The notes under the pieces were generated by a model, which saw nothing but the letters and a program-made list of their open reading frames with translations, was not told the origin of the DNA and searched no databases. DNA of 64,000 nt from Verrucomicrobiota bacterium (GTDB lineage Bacteria > Verrucomicrobiota > Verrucomicrobiia > Limisphaerales > Pedosphaeraceae), in the NCBI GenBank assembly GCA_021325145.1, contig JAJPHR010000061.1, positions 1 through 64,000 of the forward strand. The letters are read 5' to 3'. Position 1 is the first letter of the stretch. Each line of letters opens with the position of its first letter. Made by a program: the position numbers and the translations under genes. Shown here in pieces: positions 1,119 to 53,706 of this stretch.

Positions 1119-1250
1119 TGATATTGGTTGTGAAAATGACCAATGCCAAATTTCCAATGACCACAGCATGCCCAAAGTCCAGGTCCCAATTCATTGGGCA
1201 TTTGACATTGGCCGTTGGTCATTAACATTAGACACGTCAAATTTGAATTG
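1119..1250. repeat. Imperfect inverted repeat, CCAA/TTGG-rich family (copy 1)
   Basis: The arms include AATGACCAA at 1135-1143 and its exact complement TTGGTCATT at 1215-1223, with further partly matching pieces (CCAATGCC, TGGGCATT, ACATTGG) between them. The composition is less GC-rich than the flanking genes. The same word set recurs at 10918-11053, 14861-14903 and 53629-53706, so this is a dispersed intergenic element and not a private operator. Confidence 0.7.
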
Positions 1251-10112: not shown

Positions 10113-10874
10113 TTACTTTTGCCGTCGATTAAACGCGACCACGTCCGCGTAACGCACTCCGCTGCCGCCGAAAATGTCCAACGCGGAGCCGATGGTCAAA
10201 TCGATCCGCCCGCGCCCTAATCGCGTGACTTCCTCCAGGTCCTGCAACGATTTCGCGCCTCCGGCATAAGTGGCGGGGATGGGCGACCATTGCCCAAGCT
10301 TCTCAACCAGCTCCGCATCGATGCCGCGGCAAAGTCCTTCCACGTCCACCGCATGAATCAGAAATTCGGCACATGACGACGCCAGCGTCTCCAAGGTTTC
10401 AGGGCTGATGGTCAACTCCGTGAACTTTTGCCAGCGATCGGTCACCACGAAGTACTCGTTGCCACGACGGCGGCAACTCAAATCCAGCACCAACCGCTGC
10501 CGGCCAATCAGCTTCACAAGGCTGCGCAGCCGTTCCCAATCCACGCGCCCCCCCTGGAACACCCAGGAAGTGACGATCACGTGCGAAGCGCCGTCGTTGA
10601 GAAAGCCGGCAGCGTTCTCGAGATTGATGCCGCCGCCAAGCTGCAAGCCGCCCGGAAACGCGGCCAGCGCCGCCCGCGCGGCCGCTTCGTTCCCAGAACC
10701 GAGCATGATCACGTGGCCGCCGCGCAAATCATCCTGGCGATACAGTTGCGCGTAGTACGCGCTGGAGCGATCCGAAACAAAATTTGTCCGCAAGCCCGCT
10801 GCCGTGTCGCCCAGCGTGCCGCCAACAATTTGTTTCACCTTGCCCTCATGCAAATCGATGCAGGGACGGAACAT
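10113..10874 (-). CDS. hisA: HisA isomerase of the eukaryotic type
   Basis: 253 residues from the ATG at 10874 (reverse strand); the longer frame up to 11090 is only read-through of the inverted repeat. The protein starts MFRPCIDLHEGKVKQIVGG and contains GGHVIMLG, LQLGGGIN, HVIVTSWVF, LVLDLSCRR, VTDRWQKF, HAVDVEGLCRGID and TYAGGA. These match plant and fungal HIS6-type phosphoribosylformimino-AICAR-ribotide isomerase much better than the common bacterial HisA, which starts IPAIDLKGG. The reaction is step 4 of histidine synthesis, on a TIM barrel. No other his gene is adjacent. Eukaryote-type HisA is known in scattered bacteria, so this is uncommon but not unique. Confidence 0.88.
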   Translation of the reverse strand: MFRPCIDLHEGKVKQIVGGTLGDTAAGLRTNFVSDRSSAYYAQLYRQDDLRGGHVIMLGSGNEAAARAALAAFPGGLQLGGGINLENAAGFLNDGASHVIVTSWVFQGGRVDWERLRSLVKLIGRQRLVLDLSCRRRGNEYFVVTDRWQKFTELTISPETLETLASSCAEFLIHAVDVEGLCRGIDAELVEKLGQWSPIPATYAGGAKSLQDLEEVTRLGRGRIDLTIGSALDIFGGSGVRYADVVAFNRRQK

Positions 10875-10917
10875 GGAAGAAAGGATAAGCGTGAGTGTGC
10901 GGAGCGGCAACTTGAAT

Positions 10918-11053
10918 GAACAATTACCAAGCACCAAGCACCAAGCTCCAGAAAAGCTCCAAGAAGCAATCACCAAACACCCATAATACGTCCTTGGTGT
11001 TTGATGTTTGACTTTTGGAGCTTTTCTGGAGCTTGGTGCTTGGTGTTTCCATT
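10918..11053. repeat. Inverted repeat with perfect 30-bp arms (copy 2)
   Basis: Bases 10932-10961 are exactly complementary to 11016-11045: a 30-bp stem made of CACCAAG / CTCCAGAAAAGCTCC words, with a 54-base loop that itself contains CAAACACC/GGTGTTTG. It lies between the divergent starts of hisA and thiG. Related, less perfect copies are at 1119-1250, 14861-14903 and 53629-53706. Confidence 0.85.
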
Positions 11054-11104
11054 GCGTTCGTGCGCGCCGCAACGTTCTCGACACCCGCATGCTCCTCCAT
11101 TAAA

Positions 11105-11902
11105 ATGTGCCCGATGCGTTTAGTGGATGATGGTTTAACGATTGCCGGGCGGGCGTTTCGATCCCGCTTGATTTTGGGGACGGGCAAGTTCTGCTCGCCT
11201 GAGGCGATGCGTGATGCGCTTGCCGCCAGCGGCACGGAGATGGTCACGGTTGCCCTACGCCGCGTGGACTTGAGCGGGGGGCGTGATCCATATGCGAATA
11301 TTCTCGAATTCATCGATCCCAAGCGCTACTTGCTCTTGCCGAACACAAGCGGCGCCATGAACGCCGAAGAAGCCGTCCGAATGGCCCGCCTTGCGGTTGC
11401 CGGTGGTTTGCCGAAATGGGTGAAACTCGAAATTCATCCGGACCCGCGCTATCTCCTGCCGGACCCGATCGAGACGCTTAAAGCCGCCGAGATCCTCGTA
11501 AAGGAGGGGTTTACGGTGTTGCCATACATTAACGCGGATCCGGTGCTGGCCAAACGTTTGCAGGAAGCCGGCACGGCCACGGTCATGCCGCTGGGTTCGC
11601 CCATCGGTTCGAATCGCGGACTGCAAACACGGGACCAGTTGCGGATCATTATTGAGCAGGCCACGGTGCCGGTGGTGGTTGATGCCGGTTTGGGCGCTCC
11701 CAGCCATGCGGCGGAGGCCATGGAATTGGGAGCGGACGCCGTGCTCGTGAATACGGCCATTGCGGTGGCGAATGACCCCAATCGAATGGCGGTCGCGTTC
11801 AAGACGGCGGTCGAGGCGGGGCGTATCGCGTATGAGGTGGGTTTGGGCGCGGTCCAGGAAACGGCCAGCCCGACAAGTCCGCTAACTGCATTTTTAAGCT
11901 GA
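11105..11902 (+). CDS. thiG: Thiazole synthase ThiG
   Basis: 265 residues from ATG 11105 (ATG 11114 is also possible); upstream in-frame codons belong to the inverted repeat. TIM-barrel motifs typical of ThiG are present: [10 protein letters not shown] near the start, [27 protein letters not shown] (with the Schiff-base lysine), [24 protein letters not shown] and [10 protein letters not shown]. It makes the thiazole phosphate of thiamine from 1-deoxy-D-xylulose 5-phosphate, ThiS-thiocarboxylate and dehydroglycine. No thiS, thiH/thiO or TPP riboswitch is visible here. The next gene starts two bases after the stop, so a cofactor operon is likely. Confidence 0.95.
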
Positions 11903-14860: not shown

Positions 14861-14903
14861 TGAAGCTCCAGCCACCAAGCTTCAGAAAAATCCCAAACTT
14901 CAA
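14861..14903. repeat. Partial CCAA/TTGG-family repeat (copy 4)
   Basis: TGAAGCT (14861-14867) pairs with AGCTTCA (14878-14884), followed by CCCAAACTTCAA, ending at the ATG of the next gene. The word set is the same as the 30-bp inverted repeat at 10918-11053, but only one half is present. Confidence 0.5.
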
Positions 14904-51448: not shown

Positions 51449-53638
51449 GTGAGCGCACCTTCAAAGTCATGTGCCGAAAGCTTGTCCGGATTGATCGAAC
51501 GGGTCACGTTCTTCAACGAAGAGAACGGTTTTGCCGTGCTCAAGGTGAAGGCCAGGGGGCATCGCGATTTGGTCACGGTCGTGGGCTCCTTGCCGTCGGC
51601 GAATCCCGGCGAATGGGTGACGGCGGAGGGACAGTGGGTGCAGGAGCGCGAATTCGGACGCCAATTCCGCGCCGAGCGTCTCACGAGCACGGCACCAACG
51701 ACCCGGGAAGGCATCGAGAAATATCTGGGCAGCGGCATGGTCAAGGGCATCGGCCCGCTTTACGCCAAAAAGTTGGTGGAGAAATACGGCGAAGGAATCT
51801 TCGACATCATCGAACAGTATTCCGCGCGGCTTGAGGAGGTGGAGGGCATCGGCCCCAAACGGCGGCGACTCATCAAGGATGCCTGGGCGGAACAGAAGAT
51901 CATCCGCAACATTATGGTGTTCCTGCACTCGAATGGAGTCAGCACCAGCCGGGCCGTAAGGATTTACAAGACCTACGGCGAGAGCGCGATTGAACTCGTG
52001 CAAAACGATCCTTACCGGCTGGCGCGCGACATCCATGGCATCGGCTTCGGTTCCGCGGACCAGATCGCCCGGAAAATCGGCATCCCGGCGGATTCACTGA
52101 TGCGCGCCCGCGCCGGGCTGGATCATGTCTTGTTGGAAGCGACCGGCCAGGGCCACTGCGCTCTCCCGCTCGAAACACTGCTGGAAGCCGCCACCAAGCT
52201 CCTGGAGGTCGATCCGCAAATCGTGTTGCAGGCCCTGGAAAAGACTCTCGCGAGCGGCGATTTGGTCCGCGAGAGCATCGACGGGCAGGATTTGCTTTTC
52301 CTGCCGGCGTTGAAACGGGCGGAAGAAGCGATTGCCCTTCGCATCCGCAGCCTGGCCCGCTCCTCTTCGAACTATCCGACGATTGATTTCGAGAAAGCGG
52401 TTGCCTGGTGCGAGCAAAGAACCGGCAAAACACTTGCGCCGAGCCAGCGCGAAGCCTTGAAGCAGGCACTCTCCCACCGGGTGCTCATCATCACCGGCGG
52501 ACCCGGCGTGGGAAAAACCACGTTGGTGAACGCGATCCTGCAAATACTCCGCGCGAAAAAAGTGCGCTGCCTGTTATGTGCTCCAACCGGCCGGGCCGCG
52601 AAGCGTCTTGCCGAGACCACCGGTCTCGAAGCCAAAACCATCCATCGGTTGCTGGAGGTGAATCCCGCCGGGGGTGGATTCATGCACAAGGAAAGCCACC
52701 CGCTGGAAACCGATCTCGTGGTGGTCGATGAGTGTTCGATGGTCGATGTCGTTTTGATGAGCCATCTTCTGCGCGCGCTTCCGGCAAACGCCAGTTTGCT
52801 TGTGGTTGGGGACGTGGACCAGTTGCCCTCGGTCGGCCCGGGCATGGTCCTGGCGCATTTGATCGAAAGCGGCGTGACGCCGGTCGTGCGCTTGACCGAG
52901 GTGTTTCGCCAGGCTGCGGAAAGCCGGATCATCACAACCGCGCATCGGATCAATGAGGGTTTGCTGCCGGAACCTCCCGACAAATCCAGCGAATCCGATT
53001 TTCATTTCATTGACCGCGCCGAACCGGAACACGTCGTTGCAACGCTGCTGGAGATGGTTAAAACGCGCATACCGGCAAAGTTCGGGTTCGATCCTGTCCG
53101 GGACATCCAGGTGCTTTGCCCGATGAACCGGGGCTCGCTCGGAGTCAGGGAATTAAACGCCAGACTCCAGGCTGAACTGAACCCGCCCAAGCCCGAGGAA
53201 CCGCTCGTGGAAAAGTTCGGCTGGCAGTTCCGTCTTCGCGACAAGGTGATGCAGACCGAAAATAATTACGACAAGGACGTTTTCAACGGCGACATCGGAC
53301 AAATCATAAAGATCGATCCCATCGAGCGCGAGGTAACAGTGAAATTCGACCAGCGCGAAGTGGTCTATGATTTCGGTGAATTGGATGAGCTGTCGCTGGC
53401 TTACGCCATCACGATCCACAAGTCGCAAGGTTCCGAATTTCCCGCAGTCGTCATACCATTGGCGATGCAGCAATACATGCTGCTGCAACGCAATTTGGTT
53501 TACACCGGCATCACGCGCGGCAAACAACTGGTGGTGGTAATCGGCCAGCAGAAGGCGCTGGCGACGGCGGTGAGGAATAATAAGACGCAACAAAGATTCT
53601 CGGGATTGTTGGAGCGCCTCAGGGTGAATGACCAATGA
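51449..53638 (+). CDS. recD2: RecD2-type ATP-dependent DNA helicase
   Basis: 729 residues, GTG start. N-terminal RecD2-type region with helix-hairpin-helix (GSGMVKGIGPLYAKKLVEKYG, VEGIGPKRRRLI), then superfamily 1 helicase motifs: Walker A GGPGVGKTT, CAPTGRAAKRL, VVVDECSMVD, LVVGDVDQLPSVGPG, and the C-terminal AITIHKSQGSEFPAVV and YTGITRGKQLVVVIG. It is the stand-alone 5'-3' helicase of bacteria that lack RecBC partners. The last three residues (NDQ) and stop are read from a CCAA-type inverted repeat. Confidence 0.95.
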   Translation: MSAPSKSCAESLSGLIERVTFFNEENGFAVLKVKARGHRDLVTVVGSLPSANPGEWVTAEGQWVQEREFGRQFRAERLTSTAPTTREGIEKYLGSGMVKGIGPLYAKKLVEKYGEGIFDIIEQYSARLEEVEGIGPKRRRLIKDAWAEQKIIRNIMVFLHSNGVSTSRAVRIYKTYGESAIELVQNDPYRLARDIHGIGFGSADQIARKIGIPADSLMRARAGLDHVLLEATGQGHCALPLETLLEAATKLLEVDPQIVLQALEKTLASGDLVRESIDGQDLLFLPALKRAEEAIALRIRSLARSSSNYPTIDFEKAVAWCEQRTGKTLAPSQREALKQALSHRVLIITGGPGVGKTTLVNAILQILRAKKVRCLLCAPTGRAAKRLAETTGLEAKTIHRLLEVNPAGGGFMHKESHPLETDLVVVDECSMVDVVLMSHLLRALPANASLLVVGDVDQLPSVGPGMVLAHLIESGVTPVVRLTEVFRQAAESRIITTAHRINEGLLPEPPDKSSESDFHFIDRAEPEHVVATLLEMVKTRIPAKFGFDPVRDIQVLCPMNRGSLGVRELNARLQAELNPPKPEEPLVEKFGWQFRLRDKVMQTENNYDKDVFNGDIGQIIKIDPIEREVTVKFDQREVVYDFGELDELSLAYAITIHKSQGSEFPAVVIPLAMQQYMLLQRNLVYTGITRGKQLVVVIGQQKALATAVRNNKTQQRFSGLLERLRVNDQ

Positions 53639-53706
53639 CCAAAGAATGCCCAATCTCCAAATCCCAAATTGGAATTTGGTCCTTGGATGCTTGATTAGTC
53701 ATTTTG
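53629..53706. repeat. CCAA/TTGG inverted repeat (copy 3) at the end of recD2
   Basis: GAATGACCAATGACC at the left end and CTTGATTAGTCATTTTG at the right end, with CAAATCCCAA / TTGGAATTTGG pairing in the middle. It contains the recD2 stop (53636-53638) and fills the 69-base gap to the convergent GH35 gene, so it may also end transcription from both sides. Confidence 0.65.

Follow-up and report, generated by a model that had tools for sequence, protein, structure and literature searches.

Between the 5' ends of a gene with a HisA domain and of thiG lies a long palindrome with no gene inside, and the question it raises is what sort of element it is and which protein, if any, it belongs with. The features of the window (the whole stretch of 64,000 nucleotides that was analysed) that bear on this question are listed here; the word families A and B are described below.

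10929..11048, no strand: focal palindromic element, family A, with heptad arms and no gene inside (inverted-repeat search and exact 31-bp arms)
10929..10981, plus strand: focal left arm with ACCAAGC-type heptads, core AAGCTCCAGAAAAGCTCCAA at 10943-10962
10996..11048, minus strand: focal right arm, the inverted copy of the left arm, core at 11015-11034 (minus)
10113..11090, minus strand: neighbouring ORF whose His_biosynth (PF00977) domain starts at residue 76 and runs downwards from about 10865
11114..11902, plus strand: neighbouring gene thiG (PF05690), with the focal element upstream of its start
1135..1223, no strand: hairpin of the sister family B with AATGACC heptad words, arms 1135-1163 and 1195-1223 (79%)
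14861..14903, plus strand: single, decayed arm of family A, lying between two ORFs
53629..53706, no strand: family B hairpin with AATGACC words, similar arms flanking an IVP-clade gene in L382

The focal arms at 10932-10962 and 11015-11045 were perfect reverse complements over 31 bp (chance probability of about 3e-12 in 64 kb). Exact complements at 10932-10961 and 11016-11045 had been noticed in a previous sequence-only reading, and the exactness runs one base further inward. Longer, imperfect arms (10929-10981 and 10996-11048) extended over 53 nt with 89% complementarity. The element sits between two gene starts, HisA-domain gene and thiG, and not within 16S or 23S rRNA. Since it overlaps the ORF 10113..11090 only upstream of its domain, the true start of the HisA-domain gene is probably at about 10880 and not at 11090.

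Searches of the source genome (6.78 Mb in 112 contigs) with the family A core AAGCWCCAGARAARCWCCAA gave 102+129 matches when 3 mismatches were allowed and 79+102 when 2 were allowed, compared with 4+4 and 0+0, respectively, for the reversed control pattern. A similarity search with the focal family in its own genome gave at least 94 matches at E≤1 with 40 of the 153 candidates scored; among these 40, the closest full-length match to the focal copy reached 84%, and thus there was no sign of recent movement of this copy. A de novo hairpin scan of 464 kb (the window plus 20 stretches) yielded 13 hairpins, several of them from these word families. Copies therefore occur far beyond the window, and the earlier description of the element as high-copy, intergenic and MITE-like is supported: many short non-coding copies were found, bearing terminal inverted repeats.

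In family A copies, the outer heptads are followed by a phase break CCAGARAARCWCC, then by inner heptads and a variable loop, after which comes the mirror image; the word is [AT]CCAA[GA]C, and the phase break is conserved. In 47 paired copies, retained from 59 candidate pairs after removal of nested or duplicate pairs and of pairs with more than 3 core mismatches, the CCAA columns were almost invariant and the 3 bases between them variable. The 94 outer arms of these copies showed an identity of 0.617 at lag 7 and 0.593 at lag 14, the remaining lags from 3 to 15 lying at 0.21-0.33. The words that had appeared to be reused in permuted order are degenerate 7-nt repeats, each arm being a run of heptads; the unlikeness to classic REPs in the earlier description is supported. 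The related copies reported in the window were real, but of two kinds: those at 1119-1250 and 53629-53706 belong to family B, and the one at 14861-14903 is a lone family A arm. Family B gave 41 matches at E≤1 in its own genome and a lag-7 identity of 0.481 (7 hand-picked loci). Loops or inner ends of several family A copies (L113, L155, L124, L079, L087 at about 6741, and L148) hold REP-like or GACGAG-word repeats, as though the loops were favoured targets. We also observed a hairpin family with GACGAG/GAGCAC words and a period of 6 or 3, not 7 (L073:16082-16166; L213 at about 1280-1345), for which no partner gene was identified.

Hairpins scattered in this manner might be REP-like and owe their movement to a Y1 (HUH) transposase, as the sequence-only reading had also considered. 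The source genome has 9 Y1_Tnp matches, RAYT-type repeats are common in it and are nested inside the loops of family A copies, and RAYT-like genes paired with long TIRs have been published as 'TIRtrons' (PMC3733652). Nevertheless, family A words were present in the flanks of 0/9 Y1 loci (1.5 kb where the contig allows), these flanks had a lag-7 identity of 0.257 without 7-nt periodicity, and the GTAG/CGTC tag is absent at the base of the focal hairpin. A RAYT partnership was rejected on the flank words and the lag-7 value, and movement by a Y1 transposase is, in our judgement, very improbable for family A. Several Y1 loci had inverted repeats of their own, and each of the RAYT-like genes L067, L068 and L069 was flanked on both sides by its own inverted-repeat family.

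A different gene was found inside full-length copies. The contigs AV80 (L169) and AV17 (L213) share a stretch at 76% identity, and in both of them a small ORF is flanked by family A arms with a spacing of about 480 bp. In L169 this ORF matched PF05635, 23S_rRNA_IVP (46.5 bits, cut-off 33.8), and its homologue in the source genome matched the solved structure 2rld (E 1.1e-9). Three PF05635 matches, one of them below the cut-off, were detected in the source genome. The first, L271, is a full copy: the gene at C64:73427-73714 (44.9 bits, cut-off 33.8) lies between opposed family A cores at 73274(+) and 73819(-), and the arms of this element are 82% alike. It therefore has the arms of the focal family, but its gene is no known transposase, and we know of no nuclease or polymerase activity for PF05635. 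The second match (C1:5731-6051) had inverted arms of another heptad word (GAGGATG-like), and the third, below the cut-off (L272, G000:C85:48537-48749), had no clear arms; by eye, the flanks of L272 contain GTCCAT/GTGGAC words with a period closer to 9 than to 7. Family B arms were found around none of these three matches (one below cut-off), though family B is abundant in the genome. The only RVT_1 gene found there (L404, G000:C35:16900-17502) has a 72-nt hairpin upstream, an arrangement that we take to be retron-like; considered as a reverse transcriptase acting in trans, this gene showed no link to the heptad arms in the source genome.

In order to extend the comparison, IVP loci were collected from the order, where PF05635 occurs in 205 of 293 genomes. 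The sample of 73 loci comprised the 3 from the source genome and the 70 best-scoring ones of the order, which favours canonical IVPs; 58 were used, L272 being left out because it is below the Pfam cut-off and the others because contig ends cut their flanks short. Heptad arms enclose the IVP genes: inverted arms scoring at least 16 were present at 50/58 loci, compared with 0/46 control windows from the same loci (medians 20 and 10), and fell below the threshold at the other 8/58. A PF05635 gene between terminal inverted repeats, the arrangement of IVS/S23 elements, was thus found at L271 and at 50/58 order-level loci. When left and right flanks from different loci were paired, 7.6% reached a score of 16, partly owing to words common to related loci. 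Identities in the IVP arms at lags 7, 14 and 21 were 0.626, 0.571 and 0.524, compared with 0.252, 0.256 and 0.292 in control sequence; the words differ between loci (AGTTGAG, GTTGATG, AGTGATG, AGCGGTC, AGGTGCC, GTCGAGG and others) and the period is constant.

The flanks of IVP genes in 11 records of named plasmids (cyanobacteria and one Bernardetia) had a lag-7 identity of 0.434 versus 0.268, which indicates that the period extends beyond this order; in several of these records a single arm was clear, and the perfect 31-bp inverted repeat of L347 contains no heptads. In the Anabaena and Nostoc plasmids L346 and L348 an IVP ('four helix bundle') gene, flanked by A-rich inverted repeats, separates cas2 from cas1. 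IVP ORFs have been noted within cas loci (PMC3936711), and such published cases may be insertions of these elements. Family A arms can also bracket cargo other than IVP, since at L257:6434-6991 they enclose a DUF6572 gene (89.6 bits).

Arm words track the IVP protein. Across the 52 loci with an arm score of at least 15, arm similarity was correlated with IVP identity (Mantel r 0.363, reached in 0/5000 permutations), and the correlation persisted after leaving out 45 pairs with homologous outer flanks (r 0.222, 0/5000). Among 30 loci with the nearest IVP relatives, the closer ones had CCAA-type words and several at 55-65% identity had AATGAC words, and the IVP-clade gene of L382 was flanked by family B words. 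A few of these loci (e.g., L374, L377, L378) were armless by the measure used. Some gene positions in this comparison were placed by motif, and the alignment of L357 joins wrong stretches, both cores being present.

The distribution of hairpins and protein was compared in the same 293 genomes, of which 36 had at least 5 family A cores and 39 an A-clade IVP (E≤1e-25). Both were present in 19 genomes, cores only in 17, IVP only in 20 and neither in 237 (Fisher p 5e-10); the 17/36 hairpin-rich genomes without a detected A-clade IVP are draft genomes in which loss is possible. By family, an A-clade IVP occurred in 16/17 families with hairpin-rich genomes and in 5/45 others, large families being likelier to show both. 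The three richest genomes, with 181, 188 and 165 cores, had IVPs at 100, 79 and 79% identity, and two genomes with an IVP (G282, 80%; G068, 75%) had zero core matches, their arms having diverged. The focal element itself had no significant match in 7/7 other genomes of the same family, and single genomes of other families contained dozens of family A core matches. When named genome contigs were scanned for the core, the matches listed comprised 80 loci, of which 79 carried titles that we assign to Verrucomicrobiota (one Akkermansia) and 1 a Proteobacteria title. As regards a phage origin, the exact core was found in only 4 stretches of viral contigs (L266-L269, IMG/VR), which may represent phages, prophages or host DNA classed wrongly, and one phage record had a weak IVP match.

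These results also bear on the possibility that replication slippage or template switching generates the heptad arrays, in which the IVP genes would be no more than tolerated passengers. Consistent with it, variable-length heptameric arrays have been published for Xanthomonas, Nostoc and Beggiatoaceae with no protein partner named in the available text (PMC4692102, PMC4679880), hairpins outnumber IVP genes, and family A arms carry the DUF6572 ORF of L257 as well. Slippage, however, predicts neither one gene family between inverted arms in 50/58 cases, nor arm words that follow IVP relatedness, nor the co-occurrence of abundant hairpins with an A-clade IVP, and we regard it as an unlikely origin.

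The remaining explanation to be weighed is that the palindromes act as regulatory hairpins in host RNA (as terminators, stabilisers of mRNA or sites for RNase III) and are selected for RNA pairing. Folded alone, the focal element gave -81.7 kcal/mol as RNA (z -14.0 versus shuffles), a very stable fold which speaks for this explanation, and -50.9 as DNA (z -12.8 versus shuffles). The variable triplets likewise agreed more within the arms of one copy than across copies (0.731 and 0.658 for the outer 14 nt; maximum of 2000 permutations 0.713), and a stop codon was located from -15 to +10 bp of the copy edge in 36/51 gene ends facing a copy. Flanking genes of the 38 of 47 copies that could be classed, with genes taken as ORFs chosen by length and not from proper annotation, were oriented ++ in 9 cases, -- in 8, convergent in 12 and divergent in 9, compared with 88, 100, 66 and 60 for all neighbouring gene pairs of the 464-kb sample. 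Between convergent genes, a median of 8 bp was left besides the element, versus a general median gap of 58 bp (12 and 66 pairs); 2 of the 12 were outliers (residual gaps of 984 and 1511) with no nearby gene called.

Against selection for RNA pairing, 9/38 classed copies are flanked by divergent genes, no terminator-like site was found at the focal copy and no Rfam match in the window, the core positions of family A arms were without covariation in 47 copies, and the distribution is patchy, the focal element being without a significant match in all seven same-family genomes. Moreover, arm mismatches in 50 IVP elements (arm score of at least 16, oriented by gene) comprised 80 G.U and 89 A.C pairs (p 0.54), and since G.U did not exceed A.C no selection for RNA pairing is visible in these arms; their 5' arm on the coding strand was G-rich in 46/50. 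A terminator or Rfam RNA was thus rejected on the absence of a terminator-like site, an Rfam match and a G.U excess. The idea of a folded RNA 3' end, raised from the sequence alone, likewise does not fit a focal copy between two gene 5' ends or a family with 9/38 divergent settings, and we consider regulatory RNA an improbable explanation. We read the arms instead as word runs that are probably kept because a protein reads them on DNA, with some homogenisation between the two arms.

Comparison of gene junctions between genomes showed that hairpins and full elements share arms and junctions. At the junction of a DHO_dh-domain gene with an aldehyde dehydrogenase gene, the source genome has a short hairpin (L406), and L169 and L213 have a full IVP element; L198 has a short hairpin before the aldehyde dehydrogenase, the gene on the other side of the hairpin not being identified. 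Downstream of the same aldehyde dehydrogenase, L169 has a family A hairpin and L213 one with CGAATGA words. Elsewhere, family A in L224 corresponds to a GAGCAC-word hairpin in L213, family A in L212 to no element in L264, and the family A arms with DUF6572 in L257 to none in L193; at two other pairs (L182/L259 and L194/L234) the element is common to both genomes. These presence/absence comparisons span diverged stretches of about 68-79% identity, among which neither an empty site with near-identical flanks nor, at that divergence, a target-site duplication was found. Between G043 and G086, which are about 90% identical, both compared family A sites were shared, with arms kept and loops diverged. 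The same junctions thus do differ between diverged genomes, and transposition as such was not seen in the genome comparisons. In different genomes, several family A elements occupy successive gaps of the DHO_dh/aldehyde dehydrogenase cluster (L406, that is C64:66000-80000, L169 and L213).

Collectively, the full copy on C64, the heptad arms at IVP loci, the words tracking the protein, the co-occurrence in genomes and the common gene junctions lead us to the view that the focal palindrome is probably a non-coding, MITE-like member of the IVP element family, a dispersed counterpart of rRNA intervening sequences. Findings that weigh against this view are the 8/58 IVP loci below the arm threshold, the 17/36 hairpin-rich genomes in which no A-clade IVP was detected, the abundance of family B in a genome whose three PF05635 matches lack family B arms, the DUF6572 cargo of L257, and the sharing of both family A sites compared at about 90% identity. 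Our inference is that mobility is driven by the IVP protein through its reading of the heptads. Each IVP lineage would have its own heptad word, which the protein would bind as a multimer on each arm; the homologous Avd assists DGR retrohoming. The multimers would then bring the two arms together, and the DNA bounded by them, gene-bearing or not, would be copied or moved between genes, often beside stop codons, with a host enzyme performing the cutting or copying. The short hairpins may be moved in trans or be formed by loss of the inside, and copies inserted into rRNA would have become the 23S rRNA intervening sequences.

Several known systems resemble parts of this picture. The 23S intervening sequence (IVS) of Coxiella has an S23p ORF, tandem GACAGAT heptamers before it and a 28-bp terminal stem, and the functionality and origin of such elements have been called unclear (PMC4990558). 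As in the IVS of Coxiella and Leptospira, one PF05635 gene lies between terminal inverted repeats, with heptamers too in Coxiella; in contrast to them, the present elements are high-copy, mostly gene-less and located between protein genes, not in rRNA, and their words vary by IVP lineage. In CPR bacteria, IVP ORFs have been described at scattered sites of rRNA genes (PMC11270868), and Xanthomonas S23p forms pentamers of four-helix bundles (cited in PMC4990558). The heptamers of Xanthomonas (GGGAATC, with 70 and 75 convergent inverted pairs in two genomes; PMC4692102), Nostoc (GGGGA(T/C)T) and Beggiatoaceae (TAACTGA) (PMC4692102, PMC4679880) share the 7-nt period, the intergenic location and the proximity to stop or start codons, but they were reported as simple repeats without such a protein partner, and the terms '23S' and 'four helix' are absent from the available text of both papers. 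With MITEs the elements share being short, non-coding and intergenic, with terminal inverted repeats and a related gene-bearing copy; they differ in that family A has no transposase, the arms are degenerate heptads and the full-length matches of the focal copy are at most 84% among the candidates scored. REPtrons (REP/RAYT) and TIRtrons (TIRYT) also consist of palindromes scattered between genes and a linked gene flanked by the same repeats, but here the partner is IVP and not a Y1 transposase, there is no GTAG/CGTC tag, and the arms are about 53 nt long and 7-periodic. PF05635 resembles Avd, the accessory protein of DGRs (PMC10053308); unlike in DGRs, no RT was seen beside the IVP copy of the source genome. 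In the open-access literature, which mostly leaves out subscription journals, so that prior work may exist, we found no publication that connects PF05635/S23 proteins with heptad arms outside rRNA.

Tentatively, and with somewhat less than even confidence, the proposal may be widened: S23/IVP four-helix-bundle proteins could be what reads the sequence in a widespread class of bacterial mobile elements without a recognised nuclease, with one 7-nt word per lineage repeated along the inverted arms, moving both their gene and gene-less hairpins in trans, and the rRNA IVS, the heptamers published for Xanthomonas, Beggiatoaceae and cyanobacteria and the Verrucomicrobiota palindromes could be one phenomenon. 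The function of S23/IVP, the spread of rRNA IVS and the origin of heptameric repeats each appear to be open questions in the literature, and the heptad arms tie them together. If IVP does bind and move its own 7-nt word, this would be a new way in which a small helical protein reads DNA and would reveal a large hidden class of mobile elements, and intergenic palindromes otherwise taken for regulatory RNAs would be explained as relics of the IVP family.
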